This document shows positions 31,815 to 36,527 of a stretch of 61,142 nucleotides of DNA, piece after piece. How positions within the stretch are numbered: position 1 is the stretch's first letter; the number at the start of each line of letters is the position of its first letter. Made by a program: the position numbers and the translations under genes. The notes under the pieces were generated by a model. That model was given only the letters and a program-made list of their open reading frames with translations. It was not told the origin of the DNA and searched no databases. Source of the DNA: Thioalkalivibrio versutus (GTDB taxonomy: Bacteria > Pseudomonadota > Gammaproteobacteria > Ectothiorhodospirales > Ectothiorhodospiraceae); assembly GCF_001999325.1 (NCBI RefSeq), contig NZ_MVAR01000020.1, positions 1-61,142 on the forward strand, given 5' to 3'.

Positions 31815-32885
31815 GTGAATAACGCCCTTGGCAGGAAGAATTGGTTGGGTTGGCTGGCGAGCGTCGTCTCGCTGGTGGGCATGGTGGTGTTGTTCGCGAC
31901 CGCCTCTGTGGCGGACGAATCCGTCGAATCCGACGAGGGGATCGTGTTCGATGACACCCCGCGCCCGATTGGGCTGCATACGCCCGACTGGTTCGAGCTG
32001 AGCTTCCTCGATCTGCGCGAGGACCTGGAAGACGCGGTGGAGCAGGGAAAGATGGGGCTGGCCGTCTACTTCGGCATGGATGACTGCCCCTATTGCGAGG
32101 CGCTGTTTGACAAGAACTTCGCACAGGACGATATCCGCGAGTACCTCGCGTCACACTTCAACGTGGTGGCGATCGACGCGCTGGGCACACGTGAAGTCAC
32201 GGACCTGGAGGGCGAGACCTGGCTTGAACGGCGCTACGCCGCCGAACAACGGCTGAACTTTACCCCTTCGATTGCCTTTTACGACGAGGATGGCGAGCGC
32301 ATCCATCAGATGCGCGGTTACTACCCGCCATACCGGTTCCGCGCGCTGCTGGAATACGTGATTGACCGGCATGACCGCGAGGAGAGTTTTCGCGACTATC
32401 TGGAGCGCGCCGACCCACCGCCAAAGTTCGATCTCGACGACATCAACCAGCGGGAGTTCTTCATCAACCAGCCGTATGCGCTGGATCGGAGCCGAATCCC
32501 CGCCGAACGCCCACTGGTGGTGTTCTTTGAGCGCGAGGCCTGCCATGCCTGCGATATCATGCACTCCGAGCCGCTGCAGCAGGACGAGGTGCTGGAGCGC
32601 ATCGGCCTGATGGATGCGGTGCAGCTGGATGCCGACGATGCCGATACGCCGGTGCTGACGCCGGGTGGCGACCGCACCAACGCAAAAGACTGGGCCGCGG
32701 AACTGGGTGTGCACTGGGCGCCCACGCTCATTTTCTTCGACGAGCGTGGCGAAGAGATTATCCGCATCGATTCGGTCGTCCACCAGAATCGGCTGCGCAA
32801 CGTGCTGGACTTTGTCCTGACCCGTGGCTACGAGGAGTATCCGACCTTCGAACGCTGGCGTGCCCAGCAGCCGCCGCGCCCCTGA
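31815..32885 (+). CDS. Exported tandem thioredoxin-fold protein (SoxW-like)
   Basis: A 356-residue protein with an N-terminal signal or anchor ('WLASVVSLVGMVVLFATASV') and two thioredoxin-like domains. The first has CPYC at residues 91-94 with a cis-Pro block 'RLNFTPSIAFYDEDG'. The second has CHAC at 243-246 with 'LGVHWAPTLIFFDERG'. Each domain resembles the SoxW/thioredoxin_2 group of periplasmic reductases. Two unequal active sites in one chain suggest relay of electrons or a dithiol-disulfide exchange partner, which is inference. A GTG start with GGGAG upstream is used. It follows serS closely but is functionally unrelated, so readthrough is likely. Confidence 0.8.
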   Translation: MNNALGRKNWLGWLASVVSLVGMVVLFATASVADESVESDEGIVFDDTPRPIGLHTPDWFELSFLDLREDLEDAVEQGKMGLAVYFGMDDCPYCEALFDKNFAQDDIREYLASHFNVVAIDALGTREVTDLEGETWLERRYAAEQRLNFTPSIAFYDEDGERIHQMRGYYPPYRFRALLEYVIDRHDREESFRDYLERADPPPKFDLDDINQREFFINQPYALDRSRIPAERPLVVFFEREACHACDIMHSEPLQQDEVLERIGLMDAVQLDADDADTPVLTPGGDRTNAKDWAAELGVHWAPTLIFFDERGEEIIRIDSVVHQNRLRNVLDFVLTRGYEEYPTFERWRAQQPPRP

Positions 32886-33734: not shown

Positions 33735-34121
33735 TCAGCCGCGCCAGGCGGCAATGGCCAACCCGGCCCAGCCGAGGATAAACGCCGTGCCGCCCAGCGG
33801 TGCAATCGCGCCGAGGATACGGGGTGCGCCGAGCGCCAGGGCATACAGGCTCCCAGAGAACAGCAGGATGCCGATCACGAACGCCACAGCACTGGCAGCG
33901 GCCCAGCCGTTGGCCAGGTGGGCCCACAACGCCGCGACCAGCAGCAGGGCCAGGGCATGGATGAAGTGATACTGGACGCCGGTATGCCAGGTCGCGAGGG
34001 CCTGTTCCGTCAGGCGTTCCTGCAGGGCGTGGGCGCCGAAGGCGCCGAGGACGACGGCAATCCCTGCCAACAGGGCAGCGATGACAACAAGGGGGCGAAT
34101 CAGCGGTTCGCTGGCCCCCAT
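33735..34121 (-). CDS. DUF423 integral membrane protein
   Basis: A 128-residue protein with four hydrophobic helices. Family marks: 'GIAVVLGAFGAHALQERL' near the N-terminus, 'WHTGVQYHFIHALALLL' in the second helix, 'GILLFSGSLYALALGAPR' and 'APLGGTAFILGWAGLA' at the end. DUF423 (YgdD) is widespread and uncharacterised. The ATG overlaps the stop of the upstream hypothetical gene (TGATG at 34119-34123), so the two are translationally coupled. Confidence 0.88.
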   Translation of the reverse strand: MGASEPLIRPLVVIAALLAGIAVVLGAFGAHALQERLTEQALATWHTGVQYHFIHALALLLVAALWAHLANGWAAASAVAFVIGILLFSGSLYALALGAPRILGAIAPLGGTAFILGWAGLAIAAWRG

Positions 34122-34456
34122 CAGGCGTCGTCGCCCATCTCGCTGTCGATGTCCTGGCCGGCGACCCAGCCGTGCTCACGGGCGCGCTCGATGGCTTCGT
34201 TATGGATGCGCTCATGGCGCTCGCGCAGCTCGGGCGGGAGGTTGCTGATGCGCAGGCTGTATTTGTCCCACTCGGCGTTGACCTGGTCATGCAGCATCTG
34301 GATGCGCGAGACATCCCAGCCATCGCAGGTTTCGTCCTCCGGGAGGATGCCGAATACCCAGGCATCGCGGATGAAATTGCCGATGGGGGTCATGCCGGCG
34401 TACATGTCGTTGTACAGGCCGACGTAGGTGCGACTGGAGCGTTTGGGTTCATTCAT
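34121..34456 (-). CDS. Conserved hypothetical protein
   Basis: A 111-residue soluble protein beginning 'MNEPKRSSRTYVGLYNDMYA' and ending 'EHGWVAGQDIDSEMGDDA'. It has no Cys pair or membrane segment. The sequence is Tyr/Asp/Glu-rich with several conserved-looking Trp. I do not recognise a family. It overlaps DUF423, which argues that it is a real gene. The compound hairpin element starts 19 bp upstream of it, so its promoter may lie inside that repeat. Confidence 0.6.
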   Translation of the reverse strand: MNEPKRSSRTYVGLYNDMYAGMTPIGNFIRDAWVFGILPEDETCDGWDVSRIQMLHDQVNAEWDKYSLRISNLPPELRERHERIHNEAIERAREHGWVAGQDIDSEMGDDA

Positions 34457-34474
34457 GCTGCATAGTCTAGGGAA

Positions 34475-34761
34475 ATACTGATGAATGTACACACTCGCGT
34501 TGGCACCCCAGGTTTTCCGAGACAAGGCGCGTCGTGCAGCGGGTAGTGGTTCTACCCGCCCGTTTTTGATGGATTCGGGGCGCAACGCAGGATCGGGGAA
34601 CCTGGGGTGCCAACCCCATAAACCATTGAATGCAGGGGCTCGGCCGCTTTTGCGTGCGCCCAGCGTTGCGGCTCGCTTATGTAGCTCGGCTACACTTCGC
34701 TCACCGCGCCTTGTTCGCACGCAAAAGCGACTCGAGCGCGAGGGTGTACATTCATCAGTAT
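34475..34761. repeat. Compound hairpin (REP/MITE-like) element
   Basis: Terminal inverted repeats of 25 bp (34475-34499 and 34737-34761, 24 of 25 complementary) enclose two palindromic units. Unit 1 has 15-bp perfect arms at 34500-34514 and 34599-34613 and an inner hairpin (GCGGGTAG/CTACCCGC). Unit 2 has 14-bp arms at 34645-34658 and 34716-34729 and an inner GTAGC/GCTAC hairpin. Both units contain an ACAAGGCGCG-type block, showing they are related. It has no coding capacity and resembles non-autonomous or REP-type elements. It fills the gap between two divergent genes. Confidence 0.7.
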
Positions 34762-34842
34762 GTCCCTCGGCGTGCGTCCGTCTCAGGCAAAGCGATTTCG
34801 ACGCGGGTTCCGGGGGCTTCCGGACGCGAACGGGGATACCAG

Positions 34843-35403
34843 GTGCACGCAACAAACGACTCGCTGACTCGGGTACGCATCCGCGCCCTGATCAAACTGA
34901 TGGTTCTCGGGGCCGCCCTGCTGCTGGTTGGGGTGATGCTCCGGTACGCCTTTTCCGGACCGGGCGATACCCGTGGCGAGACGCTGCGGGTGGATCTTGC
35001 CGAGATTGCCCCGGGCGAGGCCCTGCGTGTGATTCACGGTAGCCGCCACGTGCTTGTGGTCCATCGCGATGCGGCGTGGCAGGCCGCCCTGGCCGGTGAT
35101 GACGAGCTGGTCGACCCGGAGGCCCGCCGCGGCCAGCAACCGGACGGGCTGGATCGGCCATTGCGCAGCTTCCGGCCCGAGTGGCTGGTGGTGATCGGCG
35201 AAAGTGCGGATCTGGGTTGCGAGCTGGACCTGGTCCACCCGGACGAGGCCGACGGCTGGAGCGGTGGCTTTGTCGACCGCTGCCGGGGCGGACGTTACGA
35301 CGGCGCCGGCCGCGTATATGCGGATCAATCGGCCCGGCGCAACCTGCCCATCCCCGACTATCGCTTCGCCGGGGATGACCAACTGATCCTGGGCAGACCG
35401 TGA
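34843..35403 (+). CDS. Rieske-fold protein lacking all iron-sulfur ligands
   Basis: A 186-residue protein from GTG 34843 (CGGGG upstream). One membrane helix lies near residues 15-37. The rest matches the ubiquinol-cytochrome c reductase Rieske subunit: 'VDLAEIAPGEALRV', 'HGSRHVLVVHRDAAW', 'LRSFRPEWLVVIGESADLGC', 'GGFVDRCRGGRYDGAGRVY' and 'NLPIPDYRFAGDDQLILG'. In true Rieske proteins these read C-T-H-L-G-C and C-P-C-H. Here they are S121-A-D123-L-G-C126 and D145-R-C147-R148, so both Cys and both His ligands are gone while the disulfide pair C126/C147 remains. No petB or petC gene is nearby. It cannot hold a [2Fe-2S] centre in the usual way. A structural or regulatory role is inference. Confidence 0.8.
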   Translation: MHATNDSLTRVRIRALIKLMVLGAALLLVGVMLRYAFSGPGDTRGETLRVDLAEIAPGEALRVIHGSRHVLVVHRDAAWQAALAGDDELVDPEARRGQQPDGLDRPLRSFRPEWLVVIGESADLGCELDLVHPDEADGWSGGFVDRCRGGRYDGAGRVYADQSARRNLPIPDYRFAGDDQLILGRP

Positions 35404-35532: not shown

Positions 35533-36303
35533 TCAGCCGTCCTCCACCTTCGCGAGGGTGATGGCAGGGTAGAGGTCAAAGCGCACGCTCTTGCCCTTGA
35601 TGCTCGCCTGGGGCGAGTCGGGACCGAGGGCGGGCGCATGCAGCGGGCGCTTGACGATGACGCGACGTCCCACGTTCTGGCGCAGGGTGGCCAGGGTTTG
35701 CTCTGCGTCGGGGTCGGCCGCCTCGGGCATCAGCGCCTGCATCAGCTGCATGTCCTTTTTCACCGCGGCCCGCTTGGCCCGTTCCGGGAACATGGGATCG
35801 AAGACCGCGGCCATTGCCGGGACGGCGAGATGCGCCGGATCGGCCTTTCCCTCGTGCAGGGTGATGCGTCCGATGATGGGCGCGAGTTCCGGACTGGCCG
35901 CCGCGCGTTCCAGCGCGTCGGCGAGCAGGTGGTACACCACGGGATGCCGCTCCCAGGCCGTGACCCGGAAGCCGTGCGCGGCCAGCAGGAGGGTGTCGCG
36001 GCCCAGGCCGGCGGAGGCATCCAGCACATGGCCGTCACGCGGGAGTCTGCCGAAGGCGCGGATCAGGCCCTCGCGCTGGTGACCGGCATGGGCGAGGCGA
36101 TAGCCCTGGCGCCCGGCGGCAAAGTCCAGCTGCAGTCGCAGCGGCGGGTGTACGTCCTCGCGGACCAGTTCGAGCCCGCGGTCTCCCGTCTCCAGCACGA
36201 GCGTGGCTTCCCCGGCATGGGCGTAGCCGCGCGCCGCCAAGGCCTGGCGCAGTGCGTTGGCGGCGGACTCGTGGCCGGGGGCCGCGCGTACGGTGAGTGG
36301 CAT
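35533..36303 (-). CDS. rsmJ: 16S rRNA (guanine-1516-N2)-methyltransferase
   Basis: A 256-residue SAM methyltransferase of the RsmJ family. Motif I is 'VLDASAGLGRDTLLLAAHG', followed by 'VTAWERHPVVYHLLADALER'. 'VFDPMFPERAKRAAVKKDMQ' is the family hallmark, and 'VGRRVIVKRPLHAPALG' with 'IKGKSVRFDLYPA' close the C-terminus. Start 36303 is used rather than a longer N-terminus because it keeps the family length. It is the last gene of a tight row: hydroxyacid dehydrogenase, slyX, rsmJ, with gaps of 5 bp each. Confidence 0.93.
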   Translation of the reverse strand: MPLTVRAAPGHESAANALRQALAARGYAHAGEATLVLETGDRGLELVREDVHPPLRLQLDFAAGRQGYRLAHAGHQREGLIRAFGRLPRDGHVLDASAGLGRDTLLLAAHGFRVTAWERHPVVYHLLADALERAAASPELAPIIGRITLHEGKADPAHLAVPAMAAVFDPMFPERAKRAAVKKDMQLMQALMPEAADPDAEQTLATLRQNVGRRVIVKRPLHAPALGPDSPQASIKGKSVRFDLYPAITLAKVEDG

Positions 36304-36308
36304 GGGCG

Positions 36309-36527
36309 TCAGTAGTGCGGCGGGGGTGGTTCGGCGCCCTCCGGCCCGCCGCCGTGCTCCTCGAGGTCGCGCATGCGATCGCGCAGCCACTGGACCTGCT
36401 GGCGCAGCTCGGTATTGGCCTGTTGCAGCTCCAGTTGCACGCGGGCCTGCTCCTCCTGGGTGTATTCCTGATGGGCCAGGCGGATCTCCAGATCCTCGAT
36501 GCGTTTTTGCAGGGCTTCCGAATCCAT
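36309..36527 (-). CDS. slyX: SlyX family coiled-coil protein
   Basis: A 72-residue protein that is nearly all heptad coiled coil ('LQKRIEDLEIRLAHQEYTQE' and 'LRQQVQWLRDRMRDLEEHGG'), ending 'EGAEPPPPHY', the standard SlyX tail. Its function is unknown, although its presence is widespread in Gammaproteobacteria. It lies between the dehydrogenase and rsmJ with 5-bp gaps. Confidence 0.92.
   Translation of the reverse strand: MDSEALQKRIEDLEIRLAHQEYTQEEQARVQLELQQANTELRQQVQWLRDRMRDLEEHGGGPEGAEPPPPHY

Follow-up and report, generated by a model that had tools for sequence, protein, structure and literature searches.

A conserved paralogue of the bc1 Rieske protein PetA without cluster ligands in Thioalkalivibrio versutus and its relatives

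The window analysed here, a stretch of 61,142 nucleotides from the genome of Thioalkalivibrio versutus (contig NZ_MVAR01000020.1), carries at 34843..35403 on the forward strand a gene for a 186-residue paralogue of the Rieske protein PetA, identified as cluster-free from its frame, its score against TIGR01416, a phmmer search and an alignment. The frame runs open for 186 codons from a GTG at 34843 to the TGA at 35401-35403; an alternative in-frame ATG at 34630 gives a longer mechanical ORF of 257 aa. The 13 closest relatives (L002-L014) have a start codon at the GTG-equivalent site or one codon upstream, often preceded by a purine-rich stretch, where the start in each relative is a scripted choice of the one nearest to the window's GTG. 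A scan of the locus for promoters and terminators found none above chance. The product begins with a predicted helix (residues 4-36; 34852..34950, forward strand) that displays R10, R14 and K18, followed by a Rieske head that the structure model places at residues 47-186 (34981..35400, forward strand). The helix is taken as a membrane anchor: an anchor had already been proposed from the letters of the DNA, and the model supplies the helix while the anchoring role stays putative. By analogy with PetA, the head would lie in the periplasm.

Convergent with the paralogue is a PF04445 methyltransferase gene (35533..36309, reverse strand, with the start at 36309 being a chosen one), which we take to be rsmJ. 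A gene of this type is present in 20 of the 21 neighbourhoods compared, and another ten family codes (11 in all) also have it adjacent or close to the paralogue, at a distance of about 2.5 kb in genome G166. On the other side, a divergent gene (34121..34456, reverse strand) encodes a conserved 111-aa protein which belongs to no Pfam or NCBIfam family and for which the structure model is poor (mean pLDDT 70.2). It recurs in 19 of 20 neighbourhoods, divergent to the paralogue in the Thioalkalivibrio and Ectothiorhodospira loci, and is not specific to the paralogue, being encoded in 112 of the 369 class genomes sampled. A MITE-like element of about 300 bp (34469-34767) separates this gene from the paralogue. 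Its 31-nt inverted ends are 94% complementary; it has 35 matching stretches in its own genome, itself included, and 15 others are near full-length at 66-84% identity.

Pfam assigns the remaining neighbours to a thioredoxin-like gene, cyaY, DUF423, a 2-hydroxyacid dehydrogenase, Bax1-I (YccA) and SulP, and others are presumably serS, slyX, yajQ, gatCAB and mreB. The gene at 31815-32885, which lies between serS and the gene for a small, hydrophobic-looking protein of 140 aa, encodes 356 aa that include two thioredoxin-like stretches (PF13098), and it recurs near the locus in relatives. An iron-sulfur connection through the nearby frataxin gene cyaY was given no weight, because that gene is on the opposite strand with other genes in between. 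No respiratory gene is linked in an operon with the paralogue in the neighbourhoods compared and no operon partner that would tell its function was found; beyond rsmJ and housekeeping genes, no recurrent neighbour points to another system.

The C-terminal domain had been read as a bc1 Rieske fold, and this is upheld by several comparisons. The best phmmer match among PDB sequences is the Rieske chain of a bc1 complex (8smr_C, E 5e-25). Against NCBIfam TIGR01416, the model for the proteobacterial bc1 Rieske subunit, the paralogue scores 79.8 bits, which is under the curated cut-off of 97.4 and compares with 219.4 bits for the PetA of the same genome; two relatives of the paralogue (in G033 and G035) exceed the cut-off. 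In the predicted structure, built on an alignment of the window's sequence with 30 of the 32 named loci, the fold matches bc1 Rieske, and in a structure comparison the predicted head is closest to the zinc-bound 'immature' form of TtPetA (7yr9). No Pfam family, PF00355 included, matches the paralogue at E-values up to 10, and a scan of 22 family members (set A3) returned one chance match and none to Rieske. The TAT-signal family PF10399 matches the genome's own PetA and not the paralogue, as expected if no folded cofactor protein needs export.

The six columns of the Rieske motif, located by alignment with canonical PetA, are occupied in the paralogue by S121, D123, C126, D145, C147 and R148. 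Loop 1 (S121-A-D123-L-G-C126; 35203..35220, forward strand) and loop 2 (D145-R-C147-R148; 35275..35286, forward strand) have each had a ligand Cys and a ligand His replaced, and each retains its disulfide cysteine, C126 and C147, respectively. The canonical set of four [2Fe-2S] ligands, C-x-H ... C-x-C-H, is missing from the paralogue, whereas all six motif residues are present in 13 canonical PetA rows of the same alignment. The sequence-only reading had described just this replacement of all four ligands with retention of the disulfide pair, and the pattern extends to the relatives: the four ligands are absent and both cysteines present in all 31 other close relatives, among which we found no orthologue that keeps the Cys or His ligands. 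The motif S/G-x-D-L-x-C with D-x-C-R occurs in 30 of these 31, the copy in G055 having G-T-G-F-G-C and E-R-C-G instead. That the loops owe their sequence to a frame or sequencing error is ruled out, since the 31 relatives also lack the four ligands; there are no stops within the 32 close matches, and the sequence-only observation proved correct in both place and content.

Over the loci that were read, motifs were counted in the wider family in 68 distinct rows of the non-canonical kind and 115 of the canonical kind; L183, a PetA truncated by the end of its contig, was omitted here and included in the count for R166 given below. No ligand letter is found in 65 of the 68 rows, two retain one ligand histidine and one (L169) retains both; a ligand cysteine occurs in none. 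Both disulfide cysteines are present in 67, the exception (L178) being perhaps an alignment shift. When the rows are thinned at 60% identity, both cysteines occur in 32 of 33 and an Asp or Glu at position 145 in 30 of 33. The fixed replacements are limited to the close relatives: further out the ligand columns drift, whereas the disulfide pair does not.

Columns 123 and 148 are the positions of the two histidine ligands in PetA. Among the 33 thinned rows, 12 combine an acid at 123 with a base (Arg/Lys) at 148, 16 have neither, four have the acid only and one the base only, an association with a Fisher p of 5.9e-5 that ignores shared ancestry. Perfect coupling of D123 and R148 is rejected, with five of the 33 rows breaking the pairing. 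We read the association as a putative salt bridge between the loops, which would replace the metal. Close by, R166 (35338..35340, forward strand) adjoins the site of P-A-P in PetA; an Arg occupies this column in 82% of the 106 rows of the cluster-free set, with near copies included, and in four of the 115 distinct PetA rows.

Close relatives (E 2.3e-30 or better) are found in 32 of the 58 genomes searched around that of the window, which is itself included: 26 of 30 genomes of the genus, five of seven others from the same family, and G055, which belongs to a different family. The 32 named loci comprise 23 from Thioalkalivibrio (among them sulfidiphilus, denitrificans, halophilus, thiocyanoxidans and a MAG labelled paradoxus), eight from Ectothiorhodospira and one from a gammaproteobacterial MAG. 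G003 (96% complete) and G032 (98% complete) gave no such match. Across the class, a profile search of 369 genomes with reading of the hits found paralogues in at least 32 of them and in at least 23 family codes, a lower bound with single weak hits left out; further hits were sought in 46 genomes with two or more profile matches, some of whose hits were also left out (e.g. G037, G071, G186, G228 and G391). Among 299 genomes of the phylum, no paralogue was seen outside the class, from where the motifs of 11 hits were read.

The paralogue is under purifying selection. The NG86 dN/dS ratio against the nearest relative, at a dS of 0.25, is 0.099; pairs within another species group give 0.05-0.08 at a dS of 0.38-0.49, so that the check proposed alongside the sequence-only reading returned values of 0.05-0.10. 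Ratios rise to 0.46 for distant pairs, in which dS is near or above 1, and these were not relied on. A recent pseudogene is disfavoured both by dN/dS and by the open frames.

A tree of 103 rows (44 cluster-free and 59 PetA) contains one branch that splits the two sets, with support of 98/99. A second tree, of 72 rows with both loops blanked (27 cluster-free, and with 11 PetA from outside the class added), also has one splitting branch, at 100/100 with a bootstrap that had not fully settled. This second tree holds 27 of the 68 distinct cluster-free rows, omitting near copies and most of the longest rows, among them L164, L166, L169, L171, L174, L175, L176 and L181, which are placed weakly or unsurely in the first tree. 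Some long-branch rows may be independent degenerations. Three of the divergent Rieske-like proteins (L169 near 4903, L174 near 4676 and L176 near 5876) start, by eye, in the manner of a cleavable signal peptide, and L169 (in G120) is the one with both ligand histidines and neither ligand cysteine. In these unrooted trees, the single separating branch suggests one origin for the cluster-free rows, with which the synteny with the rsmJ-type and 111-aa genes agrees. Head identity to the window's genome, compared over eight genomes, is 43-74% for the paralogue versus 64-79% for PetA, so the paralogue evolves faster.

The same genome has an intact petABC operon elsewhere, which encodes a canonical PetA with cytochromes b and c1; petA, petB and petC stand together on contig 14, and the paralogue beside rsmJ on contig 20. 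Among 42 paralogue-bearing genomes, a match to the C-terminal domain of cytochrome b is present in 41, as is a PetA that exceeds the curated cut-off. The paralogue of G166 (95% complete) is accompanied by neither a cytochrome b match nor a PetA over the cut-off; this copy, L170, was matched as two pieces of one 159-aa frame. The co-occurrence with bc1 is suggestive and partly built in by the choice of genomes, and it counts as weak evidence because many of the 42 were found through having two hits. Conversely, bc1 can do without the paralogue, since 290 of the 369 class genomes have some profile match at E 1e-10 against 32 in which the paralogue was found. Residues characteristic of PetA are not kept in the paralogue family, either at helix columns 21, 24 and 31 (Gly, Gly and Pro in 91-97% of PetA rows) or at column 165 of the P-A-P loop (Pro in 91%), while R14 and K18 are particular to the paralogue family; near copies are counted in these percentages, as in that for R166 (106 cluster-free and 121 PetA rows). 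With neither the helix pattern nor the P-A-P loop kept, it is doubtful that the protein would fit on cytochrome b as PetA does.

On this basis, the gene is almost certainly a conserved and selected cluster-free paralogue of PetA. The loss of the ligands, the retention of the disulfide pair and purifying selection together argue that a cluster-free role is being maintained; the relatives show that the ligand loss is old and has been maintained, and the job is probably one other than electron transport. The earlier suggestion of a selected cluster-free role is borne out to this extent, while its further assignment to a respiratory complex, as regulator, decoy or assembly subunit, is not, given the lack of a respiratory operon and the loss of the PetA helix and P-A-P pattern. 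The best overall explanation, to which we assign a probability of roughly 0.5, is an old cluster-free PetA paralogue that would be redox-inert and serve the bc1 chain. A duplicate of PetA would have stopped binding the [2Fe-2S] cluster long ago; sequence and model show that it retains the PetA layout of an N-terminal helix followed by a Rieske head, the latter with its large domain and its cluster-binding loops. The disulfide and salt bridges (D123 with R148, and D145 perhaps with R166 or R146) would close both loops at the cluster site, and the head, with its loops held in this way, would be permanently apo-like and redox-inert outside the membrane. Such a protein may act as a membrane-tethered module for protein-protein interaction in biogenesis, stability or regulation of the bc1 chain, carrying no electrons. 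That its work concerns the bc1 chain at all, be it assembly, stability or regulation, falls just short of an even bet. More tentative is the full proposal of an undescribed PetA paralogue lineage, which would have arisen a single time by an ancient duplication of PetA and now occur in many families of Gammaproteobacteria. In its members, a salt bridge linking the loops would stand in the cluster's place, and the permanently apo head, tethered outside the membrane, would serve the bc1 chain as a subunit with a structural, assembly or gating role.

The main alternative is that only the fold recalls bc1 and that the protein belongs, as a subunit or as an assembly factor, to a different membrane system (an oxidase, a complex for sulfur oxidation or for cytochrome c maturation, or a general chaperone located outside the membrane). 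We regard this as a possibility of some weight, if a doubtful one. It would account for the PetA-specific residues of membrane helix and P-A-P loop not being conserved, for the missing respiratory operon, for the one paralogue genome that shows no bc1 (G166) and for the signal peptide-like rather than anchor-like starts seen by eye in L169, L174 and L176; the remaining 41 of 42 genomes, a biased set, do have bc1, and no neighbour that recurs, rsmJ and housekeeping genes aside, points elsewhere. The same unlike helix and P-A-P residues speak against a dominant-negative decoy, one that would take the place of PetA within bc1 and so switch the complex off in certain conditions, an idea which the PetA-like layout and fold and the intact PetA in the same genome invite and which we consider improbable.

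Two further readings concern the head itself and the fate of the gene. Binding of another metal or cofactor, for example zinc via D145 and nearby residues, would fit the Asp or Glu at 145, which 30 of the 33 thinned rows share, and the existence of a zinc form of TtPetA (PMC10492824), and a thiol-disulfide redox function could be sought in C126 and C147. Residues 123 and 148 vary, however, three of the 33 rows have no acid at 145, and the two cysteines correspond to those of the structural disulfide known from Rieske heads (PMC10492824) and not to a CxxC motif, so this reading is unlikely. Least probable, and very much so, is a decaying leftover of the PetA duplication that has no present function. 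Faster evolution than PetA (43-74% versus 64-79% head identity in eight genomes) and a patchy presence, with G003 and G032 giving no match, are what decay would produce, but dN/dS is 0.05-0.10, the 32 close matches have no internal stop, both cysteines stand in 67 of 68 rows and the position near rsmJ is kept in 11 family codes. We therefore retain the old, redox-inert paralogue serving the bc1 chain as the preferred reading.

Genes of this kind can be mistaken for the iron-sulfur subunit of bc1, and counts of Rieske proteins could include some that are unable to carry electrons, since two of the relatives tested, those in G033 and G035, pass the TIGR01416 cut-off. A natural cofactor-free paralogue beside a working copy also offers a test of which parts of a Rieske protein serve folding, assembly and docking as opposed to electron transfer. 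It would equally test whether the loop disulfide is of use in itself.

Compared with bc1 PetA (TIGR01416; PF00355 with PF10399), the paralogue is alike in fold, length, order of segments, loop disulfide cysteines and the AGRV...NL..P block; it differs in having no ligands, in scoring under the cut-off with no TAT or Rieske match in Pfam, in lying outside petABC and in forming a separate branch. NirD, the small subunit of assimilatory nitrite reductase, also has a Rieske-like fold without a cluster, but is a soluble cytoplasmic partner of NirB, unlike the paralogue with its putative membrane tether. Searches of the literature by title and abstract found no account of a cluster-free PetA paralogue in Gammaproteobacteria, although other wording might find one. 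The closest head structure, that of TtPetA (PDB 7yr9; PMC10492824), is a zinc-containing form of the Rieske head; it represents a canonical PetA, putatively at a precursor stage, as opposed to a protein that is permanently cluster-free. That a Rieske domain without a cluster can work in assembly has a precedent in TEF5/PSB33/LIL8 of the green lineage, which resemble the paralogue by description: they have a membrane-attached Rieske-like domain without cluster-binding residues, and TEF5 takes part in photosystem II assembly, but they are plastid proteins with C-terminal membrane helices (PMC12164590). The nearest parallel in pattern is the 'deranged' Rieske subunit of Acidocella, which, according to Degli Esposti et al. 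2023 (PMC10715153), is missing three or four ligands and keeps the two disulfide cysteines, its bc1 complex being suggested to persist for a structural role in stabilising complex I. There, the protein is the iron-sulfur subunit of a degenerate bc1 in an alphaproteobacterium, whereas the gammaproteobacterial copy described here is additional to an intact PetA. The molecular pattern of ligand loss is the same in both, seen in Acidocella in the bc1 subunit itself and in the present family in a conserved cluster-free paralogue beside a working PetA.
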